A DNA stretch of 64,000 bases from Nitrospira sp. GTDB lineage: Bacteria > Nitrospirota > Nitrospiria > Nitrospirales > Nitrospiraceae. Positions 836 through 6,170 of this stretch are shown in pieces. The DNA is taken from the NCBI GenBank assembly GCA_029865225.1, contig JAOUHJ010000010.1:1-64000 (forward strand), written 5' to 3'. How positions within the stretch are numbered: position 1 is the first letter of the stretch; each line of letters starts with the position of its first letter. The notes below the pieces were generated by a model, which had not been told where the DNA came from, made no database searches, and saw only the letters and a program-made list of their open reading frames with translations. The translations under genes were made by a program, and so were the position numbers.

Positions 836-1177
836 ATGTCTCGCTCTCTTCACCAAGCTACCTCCGATGCCGTACCAGTTTGGACCATCGATCAAACCGT
901 GTGCGATCGAACGGTCCTCCGGTCCAGCCCCGATGTCCAAGGCACGAGCATGGATGGGGAGACTGTGTTGTTGGACCTCAGCAGTGGGCGGTACTACACG
1001 CTCAACCGGGTCGGTAGTGTTATTTGGGAACAGTGTACAGGCGACAAGACCATCAGCGACATCCAGGCGGTCCTCTGTGACCGGTTCGATGTCGCTCCCG
1101 AGCGGGCCCTCGACGATCTCGTCACCTTGGTCAACGAGCTGACCCAGGAGGGGCTACTTCAACAAGAAAGGAGGTGA
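836..1177 (+). CDS. PqqD-family peptide-recognition protein (lasso B1-like)
   Basis: A 113-residue protein of the PqqD type. Proteins of this fold bind the leader part of ribosomally made precursor peptides and present it to modifying enzymes. Typical PqqD features are seen: a beta-strand stretch with GETVLLDLSSGRYYTLN (about residues 40-57), a hydrophobic VIWEQ segment, and a helical C-terminus ending in a DLVTLVNELTQEGLL helix. The start is fixed by AAGGAGGA seven bases before ATG 836. It lies six bases before the candidate precursor gene and heads a same-strand run with a B2-type peptidase, so it most likely works as the B1 half of a split leader peptidase. It is slightly longer than a minimal PqqD because of about 25 extra N-terminal residues. 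Confidence 0.85.
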   Translation: MSRSLHQATSDAVPVWTIDQTVCDRTVLRSSPDVQGTSMDGETVLLDLSSGRYYTLNRVGSVIWEQCTGDKTISDIQAVLCDRFDVAPERALDDLVTLVNELTQEGLLQQERR

Positions 1178-1183
1178 GGCAGC

Positions 1184-1366
1184 ATGAAGAAAGAGACGTA
1201 TGTACAGCCGGCTCTTGCCAAGCATGAACTGTTGCGGGATATCACCGCGACGCGTTCCGGCCATGGCGGACCGCGCGGCAACAACGGTTGGGGTAACGGC
1301 GGTTGGGATGGCGTGCCGGGACGGTCCGGGAATACCGGGAAGTTCTGGAACTTTGGCGACCGGTAA
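1184..1366 (+). CDS. RiPP precursor peptide, lasso-type leader with Gly/Asn/Trp-rich core
   Basis: A 60-residue peptide six bases after the PqqD-like gene, with the ribosome site AAAGGAGG upstream. The N-terminal half carries TYVQPALAKHELLRDIT, which fits the YxxPxL leader motif bound by PqqD-like proteins in lasso-peptide systems, followed by a Thr near the expected cleavage region. The C-terminal half is strongly biased (Gly, Asn, Trp, Arg), with GNNGWGNGGW and the end KFWNFGDR. No Asp or Glu lies 7-9 residues after any plausible cleavage site; a lasso ring needs such an acceptor. The peptide therefore looks like a lasso-family leader with a non-lasso core. The modification and final product are unknown. 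Confidence 0.8.
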   Translation: MKKETYVQPALAKHELLRDITATRSGHGGPRGNNGWGNGGWDGVPGRSGNTGKFWNFGDR

Positions 1367-1434
1367 CCCGTAAGAGAGGGCTGGTTGGTTCGTGAGGATC
1401 AGCCAGCCTTCTTCATACCCATGTCGAGCAGCGA

Positions 1435-2505
1435 ATGATAACCAGTGACTTGAGGCGCAGCGTGGCGATGCCAGTCGCAGATCAGCCGAAGACCGAATAT
1501 CTCTTTTCCCTGTACGGGACACCGGTCCGGTATACCACCTCATCTTCCCTGCTGACCGCACCAGTAGAGGAGTTGCTGCGGCATTTCCGGCGCGATGCCA
1601 TTGAGGAGACTACACCGCTCACCGTGCAGTTCTATACCGTACAGGACCGATCGGAAATTCCCCTGGCGCTTTCCCCGTCGGTTCGGCACCTGGTTTCCGG
1701 CACGGACGTGGCGGCTGAGGGGCGACCGGAGGACGATTTGCCCTATGTCGTGAGTCAGGACGGCGGACGATTGCTCATCGACTTTACTGATGCGGGGTTA
1801 TTCGTGATTGATGGTGCCAACGGCCGAGCCGAGGGGTACCTGCTCAAGCCTGAGCGGATGTCCGACAACTTGATTGAATATCTGTTTCATCTGACCTTGA
1901 TCGAACTCTTACGACACCAGCGCCTCTATACTATCCATGCTACGGCGCTAGAGTGGCAGGGGCGTGGCGTCCTCATCCCTGGGAACAGCGGCCGCGGGAA
2001 GACGACGTCTTTTATCTCCTTGCTCCGTGCCGGCTATCGGTATCTTTCGGATGACCACCCACTGATTAGAGATGCCGGAGGCCACATCGAGCTCCTTTCT
2101 TTCCCAATCAAGATCAACGTCACCGATGAGACCATTGCCTTCTTTCCTGAACTTCGCAATGCGCCAGAGCAGGTGCTGCAGCGACAGCCTGGTTTTCACA
2201 AGCGAGGCTTTTACGCCGAGGAAATCTACCCTACTGGGATCGGGACCTGTTGCAAGCCAGCTTTGGTGCTGTTTCCGCAGGTTGTTGATGCCCCGAAGAG
2301 CCATCTGGAGAGGATCTCTAAGAGCCGTGCCTTAGAACTGGTGCTGCCGCAAGCCTTATTGGTCTATGACCAAGAGGTGGCCCGGCGAGAATTTCAGGTC
2401 TTGACGAAGCTCGTCCAGCAGGTGGACTGTTATCGCTTACACTTTGGCCGGGACATCCTCGACCTGCCTAAACTAGTCACCCCTCTTCTGGAGCAGGTAT
2501 GCTGA
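1435..2505 (+). CDS. HprK-related kinase of the peptide locus
   Basis: A 356-residue protein with a P-loop, PGNSGRGKTT, at about residues 181-190, followed by LSDDHPL near 205, as in HPr-kinase-related proteins found in lasso-type gene clusters. Known members of this wider family phosphorylate precursor peptides, but others have no proven substrate. The N-terminal 170 residues have no motif I recognise. Start: ATG 1435 has only a weak ribosome site; ATG 1468 is an alternative. The end overlaps the next gene by seven bases (ATGCTGA), which indicates translational coupling. By position, the likely substrate is the peptide encoded at 1184-1366 or an intermediate made from it; that is inference. 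Confidence 0.8.
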   Translation: MITSDLRRSVAMPVADQPKTEYLFSLYGTPVRYTTSSSLLTAPVEELLRHFRRDAIEETTPLTVQFYTVQDRSEIPLALSPSVRHLVSGTDVAAEGRPEDDLPYVVSQDGGRLLIDFTDAGLFVIDGANGRAEGYLLKPERMSDNLIEYLFHLTLIELLRHQRLYTIHATALEWQGRGVLIPGNSGRGKTTSFISLLRAGYRYLSDDHPLIRDAGGHIELLSFPIKINVTDETIAFFPELRNAPEQVLQRQPGFHKRGFYAEEIYPTGIGTCCKPALVLFPQVVDAPKSHLERISKSRALELVLPQALLVYDQEVARREFQVLTKLVQQVDCYRLHFGRDILDLPKLVTPLLEQVC

Positions 2506-3758
2506 TGCCTACACCGTCTGTGGCTCGGCAGTTTCCTCTGACCCCTGAGGCGGAATTGCTCGTCTGGTGTGCCCGCACAATCGTATCCGATGATCTCAAA
2601 ACGCGTATTCGACACCAGGTACAGGCGTCGCTAGACTGGGCGGTTGTGCTCGCGATGGCCGAGTATCATGGCGTGAGCCACCTGTTACATAGGAATCTGA
2701 GCACAATTTGCCCTAATCTTGTACCTCTCGAACCGCTAGCTCATTTGAGGAAAAAGACCCAAGCGGGTGCCTTGCTGAATCGGTCGCTTGCCCAAGAAGT
2801 CATTACTTTGTGTGAAGCGTTTCAGGCGCGTGGAGTCCCGGTTATTCCGATCAAAGGGGCCACACTTGCTGTGTTGGCATATGGAGATCTAACTCTTCGC
2901 GATTTTACCGACCTCGACCTGCTTGTTCCTGAAGACTCCGTGGAGAAAGCACAGGTGATTTTGTCGGCGCTGGGCTACGACCGAAGGAGCGTGGTAGCCG
3001 AGCAGAGTGACCGGCATCATGATCACGGCCCACACCAGGTGTTTGTGAAAAGACGGACGCTCTGTCGCGTCGATCTCCAATGGGTGATGGCGCATCAACA
3101 CTTTGCCTTTCGCTTAGATCGCCCAGAGTTCTGGGCTCGGCGGGTTGGGGTTGCGTTTGCAAACCAGACAGTGCCGGGCTTGGCACCGGAAATGCTTTTG
3201 ATTGTACTGTGTGTTCATGGGTCGAAGCACGCGTGGGAGCACCTGAAATGGGTCTGCGATGTGGCAGAATTTGTCCGGTCACATCCAGATCTAGGCTGGA
3301 ATCAGATCTTTGTCCATGCTTCAACCTGGCGATGTCGGCGCATGCTCTATCTTGGCTTGTCAGTCGCACATATCATGCTTGATGCGCCCCTACCTGCCGC
3401 GGTGCTTGAACGGCTCAAAACCGACGTAGAAGTTGAGGCACTTGCTCACCGGATGCCGGCCAGTTTGCTGTCAGATGCCCATCAGGGGATTACCGAGGAA
3501 CAGGCAGGAGCACTCTATTTTTCAGTAAAGGATTCATGGTCGGAGCGTTGGTGGTTGGGCTTGTCGCTGTGTCGCGCTCACAGTCCCGTGGCGATAACAC
3601 CTCCCTCATGGTGTCATGGTGGTCTCCTTCTTTCGTGCCTCGCTCAGATCATTGTCCCACTTCATCGAGAGGTGAAGCGTCTCTTGTCGCCAAGAATTCG
3701 TGGAGTGATTAATCGTTGGTTCGCGTTCATTGGCGAGGCTCTCACTAGTCGGTGTTGA
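2499..3758 (+). CDS. Nucleotidyltransferase-family protein of the peptide locus
   Basis: A 419-residue protein of the NTP_transf_5 type. The signature seen is IPIKGATLAVLAYGD (from about residue 117) followed by DFTDLDLLV near 136-144, which gives the paired acidic residues expected for metal-dependent nucleotidyl transfer. Such proteins recur beside PqqD-like, HprK-like and B2-type genes in peptide clusters, and their chemical role is not settled. The start overlaps the kinase stop and has GGAG six bases upstream. About 250 residues follow the catalytic part, rich in His and Trp and without a motif I know. It may modify the peptide or act on a nucleotide-linked intermediate; I cannot decide which. 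Confidence 0.8.
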   Translation: MLMPTPSVARQFPLTPEAELLVWCARTIVSDDLKTRIRHQVQASLDWAVVLAMAEYHGVSHLLHRNLSTICPNLVPLEPLAHLRKKTQAGALLNRSLAQEVITLCEAFQARGVPVIPIKGATLAVLAYGDLTLRDFTDLDLLVPEDSVEKAQVILSALGYDRRSVVAEQSDRHHDHGPHQVFVKRRTLCRVDLQWVMAHQHFAFRLDRPEFWARRVGVAFANQTVPGLAPEMLLIVLCVHGSKHAWEHLKWVCDVAEFVRSHPDLGWNQIFVHASTWRCRRMLYLGLSVAHIMLDAPLPAAVLERLKTDVEVEALAHRMPASLLSDAHQGITEEQAGALYFSVKDSWSERWWLGLSLCRAHSPVAITPPSWCHGGLLLSCLAQIIVPLHREVKRLLSPRIRGVINRWFAFIGEALTSRC

Positions 3759-3817
3759 CATGTCCGTGGGCTAGCTCTGTGAGAGACGGTGATTCATAGA
3801 ATGCTGCTCTGCCACAG

Positions 3818-4330
3818 ATGGTGGTGAAGTTGAGGCGTGCTTTTATGAGACAGATAAGGTTTCGGCTTGTACACAAGTACTGGACAATCCTTTGGGTTGG
3901 TGCTGCGGTGCTCTGGATTCGTATCGCATTGCGATTCAAGACGTTGCCGAGGGTGCTTGAGCAATTTGGCACGCTCTCAGCCAAAGCTAAACAGAACGAT
4001 GCGGAGATGAAGATCCTGACCTGCTATGTGGATCGCTGGCTCCGGCTGTTTCCCTACAATAAGAGAGGGAATTGCTTTCCGCGATCACTCGCACTCTATC
4101 GATTCGCTCGGCAACTGGGATATCCAGTCATGTTTCATTGTGGAGTCAGAAAAGACATGTCGGGTCTCGATGGCCATGCTTGGCTCACACTTAACGGGCA
4201 GGCCTTTCAGGAGCCGGGGACGCACTGGCAAGGCTTTACGGTCACCTTTTTCTATCCGCCTGATGGTTCAAAGTCGGTGAGTCAGGGATCTGGGATCCGG
4301 TGTGAGTGTTTTGGAACGATGGAGCCGTGA
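3818..4330 (+). CDS. Lasso-type B2 leader peptidase (transglutaminase-like fold)
   Basis: A 170-residue protein of the lasso-peptide biosynthesis B2 family, a cysteine protease that removes the leader once a PqqD-like B1 partner binds it. The catalytic Cys is in NCFPRSLALY (residue 86) and the catalytic His in LDGHAWLTL (residue 120), with acidic residues following. An N-terminal hydrophobic segment (about 25-45, WTILWVGAAVLWI) suggests membrane association near the exporter. Its 3' end overlaps the start of the ABC exporter gene by up to 29 bases. The length is close to that of stand-alone B2 proteins, so it relies on the separate B1 protein at 836-1177. Confidence 0.85.
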   Translation: MVVKLRRAFMRQIRFRLVHKYWTILWVGAAVLWIRIALRFKTLPRVLEQFGTLSAKAKQNDAEMKILTCYVDRWLRLFPYNKRGNCFPRSLALYRFARQLGYPVMFHCGVRKDMSGLDGHAWLTLNGQAFQEPGTHWQGFTVTFFYPPDGSKSVSQGSGIRCECFGTMEP

Positions 4331-6170
4331 TGCGGGGTACATGGTGCTTCAGCTGTTCATGAATGGGATGACAAAGCGGCTAGGGCCTTTTCTGCTCACC
4401 GTTCGTCGGGCCCTTTCGTTCGTCTGGCAGAGCAGCCCACGCCTGGCGGTTGCCAGCGTTGTAGTCCGCATCCTCCAGGGGCTTCTTCCGCTGATAATGC
4501 TCTATCTCACAAAGCTCTTGATCGATGCTGTGACCGAAGGACTGAAGACTCCTACGGATGACGCTTCGTTGACCAGAGTCATCACCATTCTTGCTGGGCT
4601 AGCGGGTGTTGCGGGGATCAGTGCCATGTTGGGCGTAGCAGCTGGTCTGATTTCAAAAATACAGGCCCAAGTCGTCACCGATCACATGTACGCGCTCCTT
4701 CAGGCAAAGTCGGTTGAGGTCGATCTCGAGTACTATGAAAATGCGCAATACCAGGACACGTTGCATCATGCCCAACAGGAGGCTCCATACCGACCGACCG
4801 CGATTCTCAATGCTGTGCTTCAACTTGGGCAGAACACTATTTCGTTGCTCTCGATGGGGGCGATACTGTGGTGGCTGCATTGGGGGATCATTCCGGTTCT
4901 AATTGCGACGGCCATTCCGTACTTCTTGGTCCGTCTTCAGCAATCCAACACTCTGTATGTTTGGGAACGAACGCGGATACCACTGGAGCGGAAAGCTTGG
5001 TACGTCAACGCGTTATTGACGCAAGCGACGGCAGCCAAAGAAGTTCGGTTGTTCGATCTTGGTCCGAGTCTACGAGAATGGTTCCAAGACGCTCGATCGG
5101 TGCTGCGTCAGGAGCGAATCAGTTTGGAGCGTCGATGGGCGATCAAAACCCTTGTAGCACAACTCATTGGTGTAGCCGGTGTATTCGGGGTCTGCAGCTT
5201 CGTGGCGGTCCGCACATTTTACGGTTTGCTCACTCTGGGTGACCTTGTTATTTGCTTTCAAGCGGTACAGCGGGCCTCAGGATTTCTGGAGGGATTTGGA
5301 CACAGCGTTTCGAACCTCTATGAAAGCAATCTATTCCTAACGACATTGGGCGAGTTCTTAGGCATCCAATCCCGATTGCCGACGCCTGCGAAGCCGAGGG
5401 CTTTCCCCAGACCGATCACGCAAGGGGTCGTATTCGATCATGTCTCGTTCCAATATCCTCATGAGGAGCGTGTCGCGATTCGAAATTTCACCTTTTCGAT
5501 CAAACCTGGGGAACATGTTGCCTTTGTCGGCGCGAATGGCGCAGGGAAAACGACGTTGGTGAAGCTCTTGTGTCGTCTGTACGATCCATCAGAGGGGCGT
5601 ATTTTTATTGATGGAGTTGATCTTCGGGACTATCCCATTACCGAGGTCCGTGGTGCAGTCAGTGGGATCTATCAGGACTTTGTGAAGTTTCAGCTGTCTG
5701 CAAAAGAAAATATTGGGTTAGGCGTAAGAGGCCTCGCTGTTGATGACACGGCCGTCGCGCAGGCGGCCAAACAGGCTGGGATTCATGAAGTCATTCAGCG
5801 CTTGCCGCAGGGGTATGACACATTGCTCGGCAAGTTGTTTGATGGTGGGCATGAATTGAGTATCGGGGAATGGCAAAAGGTGGCGCTCGCCAGAGCCTTA
5901 CTTCGAGACTCGCAGATTCTTATTCTTGATGAGCCGACCAGTGCCATGGATGCCAAAGCGGAGGCAGAGCTCTTCGAGAGATTTCACGAACTCGCACGTG
6001 GACGGATGGCGATTTTGATCAGCCATCGGCTATCGACGGTTAAAATGGTGGATCGGATCTTTGTCGTCGATCAGGGGCAAATCGTGGAACAAGGCACCCA
6101 CGACAATTTGATGCGACAACAAGGGCTATATGCCAGCCTGTTTCTCACCCAAGCTCAGCATTACCGGTAG
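4302..6170 (+). CDS. ABC exporter (membrane domain fused to ATPase) of the peptide locus
   Basis: A 622-residue half-transporter: about six membrane helices (residues 40-340) followed by an ATPase domain with Walker A GANGAGKTTL (about 410), signature LSIGEWQKVALARA (about 519) and Walker B ILILDEPTSAMD (about 540). It lacks an N-terminal C39 peptidase, which fits leader removal by the separate B1/B2 pair. The start may be GTG 4302, inside the peptidase gene, or ATG 4341. It probably exports the mature peptide as a dimer. It is the last gene of the locus and runs convergently into the propeller gene 41 bases later. Confidence 0.88.
   Translation: MSVLERWSRDAGYMVLQLFMNGMTKRLGPFLLTVRRALSFVWQSSPRLAVASVVVRILQGLLPLIMLYLTKLLIDAVTEGLKTPTDDASLTRVITILAGLAGVAGISAMLGVAAGLISKIQAQVVTDHMYALLQAKSVEVDLEYYENAQYQDTLHHAQQEAPYRPTAILNAVLQLGQNTISLLSMGAILWWLHWGIIPVLIATAIPYFLVRLQQSNTLYVWERTRIPLERKAWYVNALLTQATAAKEVRLFDLGPSLREWFQDARSVLRQERISLERRWAIKTLVAQLIGVAGVFGVCSFVAVRTFYGLLTLGDLVICFQAVQRASGFLEGFGHSVSNLYESNLFLTTLGEFLGIQSRLPTPAKPRAFPRPITQGVVFDHVSFQYPHEERVAIRNFTFSIKPGEHVAFVGANGAGKTTLVKLLCRLYDPSEGRIFIDGVDLRDYPITEVRGAVSGIYQDFVKFQLSAKENIGLGVRGLAVDDTAVAQAAKQAGIHEVIQRLPQGYDTLLGKLFDGGHELSIGEWQKVALARALLRDSQILILDEPTSAMDAKAEAELFERFHELARGRMAILISHRLSTVKMVDRIFVVDQGQIVEQGTHDNLMRQQGLYASLFLTQAQHYR

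Follow-up and report, generated by a model that had tools for sequence, protein, structure and literature searches.

A cyclase-free operon with lasso-type maturation proteins recurs in Nitrospira and is predicted to make a linear, phosphate-bearing peptide

We analyzed a 64,000-base stretch of DNA from Nitrospira sp. (hereafter the window), which covers bases 1–64,000 of a 71,984-base contig in a draft genome of 4.12 Mb. Positions 836–6170 hold six tightly packed genes on one strand, in the order B1-A-K-NT-B2-ABC, which appear to form an operon for a ribosomally synthesized and post-translationally modified peptide (RiPP). When reading frames and coordinates were rechecked, the K and NT genes were found to overlap, as were the B2 and ABC genes, and B1 and A were separated by 6 bp. 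Its first base is also the first base of the contig, leaving only 835 bases visible upstream of the operon. Its features are as follows.

836–1177, + strand: B1, a discrete RiPP recognition element (RRE) of the PqqD family, 113 amino acids, predicted to bind a YxxPxL leader (PF05402, NF033536).
1184–1366, + strand: A, the precursor peptide, 60 amino acids, with leader MKKETYVQPALAKHELLRDITA at 1184–1249 and predicted core TRSGHGGPRGNNGWGNGGWDGVPGRSGNTGKFWNFGDR at 1250–1363; the codon of core Ser3 lies at 1256–1258.
1376–1411, + strand: RNA hairpin in the A–K intergenic stretch (shuffle z-score, covariation).
1435–2505, + strand: K, HprK-like kinase, 356 amino acids (PF07475; TIGR04352, under its cut-off; sequence matches to HprK structures; model fold).
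2499–3758, + strand: NT, NTP_transf_5 protein, 419 amino acids, with the DxD motif DFTDLDLLV (PF14907, Foldseek).
3818–4330, + strand: B2, lasso-type transglutaminase-like leader peptidase, 170 amino acids (PF13471, NF033537, alignment).
4302–6170, + strand: D, MsbA-like ATP-binding cassette (ABC) exporter, 622 amino acids, whose start codon overlaps B2 and whose true start is uncertain (PF00005, PF00664).

The operon proteins were scanned with Pfam and NCBIfam profiles. B1 matched PF05402 PqqD (68.6 bits, 5.8e-19) with NF033536 lasso_PqqD_Bac as its top NCBIfam family (1.5e-16), and a profile search of solved structures matched it to TbiB1, PbaB1 and LppB. The kinase scored 25.5 bits against PF07475 Hpr_kinase_C, under the model cut-off with the P-loop intact, and 59.6 bits against TIGR04352 (HprK-related kinase A), below the cut-off of 200; its predicted model shows a PEPCK/HprK fold, and its sequence matched HprK structures among solved structures. 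His168, the P-loop GNSGRGKT (Lys189) and Asp206-Asp207 were unchanged in all 19 homologues aligned, which is the His-Lys-Asp-Asp residue set reported for lasso kinases (review PMC9266682). The NT protein matched PF14907 (204 bits, 3.9e-60), and its model resembled the nucleotidyltransferases ANT(2'')-Ia, LnuA and MenT in Foldseek. B2 matched PF13471 (61 bits, 1.2e-16) and exceeded the cut-off of NF033537 lasso_biosyn_B2, with Cys86 and His120 invariant in the alignment; sequence searches of NT and B2 against solved structures gave nothing useful. The peptidase slot is occupied by a Transglut_core3/lasso B2 protein, and none of the six genes encodes a SipW-like SpI. The exporter carries PF00005 and PF00664, has an MsbA-type family as its top NCBIfam match and is 74–96% identical to its counterparts in other genomes. 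A preliminary description of this DNA had named the same six components and reported no cyclase in the window; both statements hold, as the frames and families were confirmed and all seven PF00733 matches of the genome lie on other contigs. One AsnB of this genome appears to be split by an assembly break, with a short overlap, between the end of contig C94 and the start of contig C80 (L004 and L003), and so represents one gene and not two.

The precursor had no match in the family scans. It is 83% identical in two relatives (L041 and L051), and the ratio of nonsynonymous to synonymous substitution rates (dN/dS) is about 0.2–0.3 overall, with a dN of 0.04 in the leader versus 0.14–0.17 in the core. 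A Shine-Dalgarno sequence, AAAGGAGG, sits upstream of the gene. Judging from its orthologues, its dN/dS and this ribosome-binding signal, the precursor gene is real, and its frame was kept in relatives, with the leader and core Ser invariant; the preliminary description would have taken loss of the frame as evidence against the locus. The hairpin downstream of the precursor gene is more stable than shuffled sequences (z = −4.9) and is kept in 15 loci across the genus, with two-sided compensatory change at 6 of 13 pairs. It is likely to be a partial terminator or processing element that raises precursor dosage.

Next we surveyed 79 Nitrospira genomes, tallying operon carriers by an orthologous NT at at least 56% identity, and found the operon in about 31 of them. 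The loci fetched from these genomes show the six-gene order that the preliminary description had proposed to look for, with variants carrying two or three precursors or additional B1-A pairs; in L043, L047 and L070 the precursor is relocated behind the exporter. Gene order is retained across species at 56–96% identity, and all genes are under purifying selection. In Ca. Nitrospira defluvii FP929003 (L105:8702-12356) the set is rearranged to B2-B1-A-K-NT adjoining purL-purF, an arrangement seen throughout L101-L110 and L121, where the cores have 9–13 residues of the IQLSRVLDRTPA type and neither an adjacent exporter nor a cyclase is present. More distant Nitrospirales loci (L114, L115-L119) retain K and B1, and L118 and L119 carry ATP-grasp genes. 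We found no description of the operon in the open-licence literature on Nitrospira lasso peptides, on NTP_transf_5 with lasso peptides or on HprK-related kinase systems.

We gathered 86 distinct precursors and sorted them into three classes, all of which share Tyr1, Pro4, a hydrophobic residue at position 6, His9 and Thr16 of the leader motif (86/86). Class I, to which the window precursor belongs (n=49), has the leader Y..P......H..LLRDITA, with Y1..P4..H9..T16-A17 invariant in 49/49, followed by cores of 12–38 residues that begin xxSG. Ser is found at core position 3 (motif position 20) in every class I precursor (49/49) and is the sole invariant core residue; Gly follows at core 4 in 43/49, and the positions beyond are hypervariable. 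Class II (n=22) has leaders ending in TG, and class III (n=15), the N. defluvii type, has cores of 9–13 residues starting IQLSR[VI]. Some cores hold two Cys (CxxC). The window core ends in Arg and has no Asp or Glu at positions 7–9, and a C-terminal Ser is not conserved. As read from their sequences, the operon cores cannot be lasso substrates, because 35 of the 49 class I cores lack an acidic residue at positions 7–9 and 11 lack any acidic residue at all.

Since the contig end truncates the upstream side, relatives were checked for a cyclase. The closest one, L051 (92% identical in the kinase and 88% in DNA), shows no cyclase in 7.7 kb of upstream sequence, and no lasso-type cyclase was found in the flanks of any fetched Nitrospira locus; given such relatives, with kilobases of upstream sequence, we reject a cyclase lying just beyond the contig start. 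We also examined four near-closed genomes, of which two are assembled in one contig, one is in two contigs and the last is the chromosome of N. defluvii. No lasso-type cyclase is encoded on the single contig of G001 (99% complete), the single-contig genomes keep the operon without a B2-linked cyclase, and exactly one B2, inside the operon set, is present in each of G001, G040, G064 and N. defluvii FP929003. Three kinds of candidate were rejected: the strong Asn-synthetase of G001, a Cys2 AsnB, belongs to a glycosyltransferase cluster, and the same AsnB is present in the operon-less G077; the gene 4 kb upstream of the operon in G063 (L043:1931-3829) is an AsnB that starts MCGI, was not seen in other loci and, by eye, has SGNH/polysaccharide-type neighbors; and the weak AsnB matches about 7 kb away in N. 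defluvii-type loci are purF, through its glutaminase domain. A lasso-type second B2, in a set read by hand, occurs in 6/31 genomes with the operon versus 7/48 without it (Fisher p = 0.76), showing that the operon and true lasso loci are not associated in occurrence. We therefore found no cyclase that always accompanies these genes, the finding by which the preliminary description would have been overturned.

A true lasso locus, which the preliminary description left out, does lie elsewhere in the same genome, on contig C6 (L071:10240-16499), and the cyclase-free status of the operon itself stands. This locus holds the genome's second PqqD and second B2 together with a cyclase (NF033535, 481 bits, just below the cut-off of 525), a methyltransferase, an HprK-like protein, an NTP_transf_5 protein and a precursor with leader YNTPTLVEYGDIAKLTQ and core GNPSGMFGDGQSGMFMSTVCL. 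It resembles the operon in its enzyme families and in its leader, YxxPxLxxxGxxxxxTx, but differs in having the cyclase and a core that begins GNPSGMFGD with Asp9, a G1...D9 arrangement; the B1 and B2 proteins of the two loci are only 30% and 25% identical, respectively.

The closest published precedent is the linear polyphosphorylated peptides (LPP) of Bacillota, described from the Paenibacillus alginolyticus lpp cluster (Nat Commun, May 2026; PMC13381572). LPP clusters contain an RRE, an HprK-like kinase, an NTP transferase and an MsbA-like exporter but no cyclase; LppK phosphorylates core Ser3, the S3A substitution abolishes phosphorylation, and the linear product is released by a SipW-like peptidase (PMC13381572). 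We consider it probable that the operon is a cyclase-free RiPP pathway that works like the LPP pathway, with a lasso-type B2 replacing the SipW-like peptidase. The observations on which this reading is built are the gene content, its conservation, the absence of a cyclase, the invariant Ser3 and the intact catalytic residues. B1 would grip the YxxPxL leader and present the precursor, the HprK-like kinase would add one or more phosphates to core Ser3, and the NTP_transf_5 protein might attach a nucleotide or sugar, using the phosphoserine as anchor. B2 would then remove the leader by cutting after T(-2)-A(-1), and the ABC transporter would export a linear peptide of 12–38 residues whose modified residue lies near the N-terminus. 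The product is most likely a linear, phosphate-bearing, exported small peptide, although we infer all of the chemistry, its order and the export. The earlier suggestion of a peptide other than a lasso, perhaps carrying phosphate or a nucleotide, agrees with the absence of a cyclase, the invariant Ser3 and the LPP precedent; with the 2026 description of LPP, the nearest published system, such a class has ceased to be entirely unknown, which the preliminary description did not take into account.

Several points weigh against this reading. LppN had no detectable effect in the heterologous LPP system (PMC13381572), so that the precedent for the NT step is PsmN alone, a nucleotidyltransferase-like protein required for placing a hexose on the phosphoserine of pseudomycoidin (PMC9266682). 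The B1 of the window is 22% identical to LppB versus 25–30% to lasso B1s, as far as pairwise identity goes. Core position 3 of class II is Tyr in 12 precursors and Ser in 10, and class III has its Ser at core 4, not core 3 (15/15). The spacing also differs, LPP having Y..T16-x-x-S19 and Nitrospira T16-A17-x-x-S20, with the Ser one residue farther from the Thr; both are core Ser3 only if the B2 cleavage site follows T(-2)-A(-1) and that of SpI follows T(-1). Finally, the product is predicted from the genes alone.

One alternative is an ordinary lasso pathway with a cyclase encoded before the contig start, or elsewhere in the genome and acting in trans, as might be supposed from the contig end and from the cyclase on C6. 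This is largely refuted, and we regard it as very improbable, given the cyclase-free upstream sequence of relatives such as L051, the lack of a lasso-type cyclase in single-contig G001, the many cores without a macrolactam acid and the absence of any second B2 from 25 of the 31 operon genomes, when 7 of 48 operon-less genomes have one of lasso type. That the locus is instead a degenerate lasso cluster, decaying after cyclase loss, would fit the presence of all other lasso components, but purifying selection on every gene, invariant catalytic residues and gene order kept over such sequence distances refute it on conservation, and the precursors have duplicated and diversified, contrary to decay; this is the least probable of the explanations weighed here.

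A more serious competitor, still unlikely, is that another activity, be it an unlinked ligase or B2 in the role of a transpeptidase, closes the peptide into a novel type of ring. The fold of B2 is that of a transglutaminase, sister modules described below carry ATP-grasp maturases, indicating that cyclization chemistries are exchanged in this family, and the CxxC cores might form a disulfide. Lasso B2s, however, are hydrolases, the cores share no acceptor/donor pair, and at E<=1e-20 neither the window genome nor G001 yielded an ATP-grasp relative. It has also to be considered that the precursor serves as a scaffold or substrate for small-molecule assembly, like that of PQQ or the pearlins, with the core consumed and not exported. 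The PqqD-type RRE, the nucleotidyltransferase and the N. defluvii-type cores of as few as nine residues are compatible with this idea, but a dedicated peptide-type exporter, a leader peptidase and long, hypervariable class I cores make it improbable.

In seven surveyed genomes (G002, G023, G039, G040, G051, G067 and G068) a second module lies downstream of the exporter. This sister module (L067:12030-19658; likewise L049, L050, L068, L069, L090-L092, L097 and L111) has two neighboring ATP-grasp-type genes, the second matching TIGR04187 (4e-36) and MvdD (6e-26), together with a further B1, precursors of class II, in most cases an additional HprK-like kinase, an NTP_transf_5 protein and either one or two FA_hydroxylase proteins. 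Its cores are rich in Ser, Thr, Lys, Asp and Glu, like graspetide substrates, and the modules may form a hybrid pathway in which graspetide chemistry is applied to a precursor with a lasso-type leader. Separately, two Syntrophomonas loci (L122:8830-14193 and L123) combine B1, B2, an HprK-like protein, a 309-residue protein and an NTP_transf_5 protein with what by eye is a B12-binding radical-SAM-like protein, another non-lasso use of these parts.

More tentatively, Nitrospira may, independently of Bacillota, have arrived at exported short phosphopeptides genus-wide by losing the cyclase and keeping B2, with the sister modules placing ATP-grasp enzymes and fatty-acid-hydroxylase-type oxygenases in the cyclase slot. 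If so, linear, grasp-crosslinked and lasso products would all be built on a single leader/RRE chassis within one genus, and might act as signals among nitrite oxidizers. On the probable LPP-like reading itself, cyclase-free phosphorylated RiPPs would reach beyond Bacillota, and the lasso B2 peptidase would also function in pathways that make no lasso. Nitrite oxidizers, which hold a central place in the nitrogen cycle and in wastewater treatment, would gain a conserved, species-variable, predicted exported peptide, and its role could be studied in members of the genus that grow in culture, for example N. defluvii. Genome mining for lasso clusters by B1 and B2 would mislabel such loci.

Among known systems, the operon shares with lasso peptides B1, B2 and the YxxPx[LVI]...T(-2) leader, but it falls outside them because it has no linked cyclase and its core has no ring acid. 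Phosphorylated lassos of the paeninodin/pseudomycoidin type (PMC9266682) have in addition the HprK-like kinase with His-Lys-Asp-Asp, the nucleotidyltransferase, the ABC exporter and the leader Thr at −2. The operon differs from them in lacking the macrolactam cyclase and, in most cores, a ring acceptor; their kinase targets the C-terminal Ser, whereas the conserved Ser of the operon lies near the core N-terminus. ATP-grasp proteins of the graspetide type (TIGR04187/MvdD) are confined to the sister modules, with none in the window genome, and to our knowledge graspetides do not use B1/B2/HprK sets. The resemblance to LPP extends from the discrete RRE, HprK-like kinase, NTP transferase, MsbA-like exporter and missing macrolactam cyclase to the YxxPx[LV] leader and the His and Thr conserved in it (YxxPxVLxHQxIxFETxxS across leader and core in LPP; PMC13381572), one to three precursors, hypervariable cores with an invariant Ser3 and frequent occurrence beside true lasso loci. 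They differ in the leader peptidase, a SipW-like SpI in LPP and a lasso-type B2 here, in phylum, the operon being in Nitrospirota and LPP said to be restricted to Bacillota (PMC13381572), and in the RRE, which is no nearer to LppB than to lasso B1s. Given the absence of SpI, a Ser one residue off the LPP motif, pairwise RRE identities that do not favor LppB and the reported restriction of LPP to Bacillota, we class the operon as a B2-type variant and not as a member of LPP. Cyclase-free pathways were first described in 2026, from a different phylum whose clusters use a different leader peptidase, and the B2-type form of Nitrospira would be a new variant.

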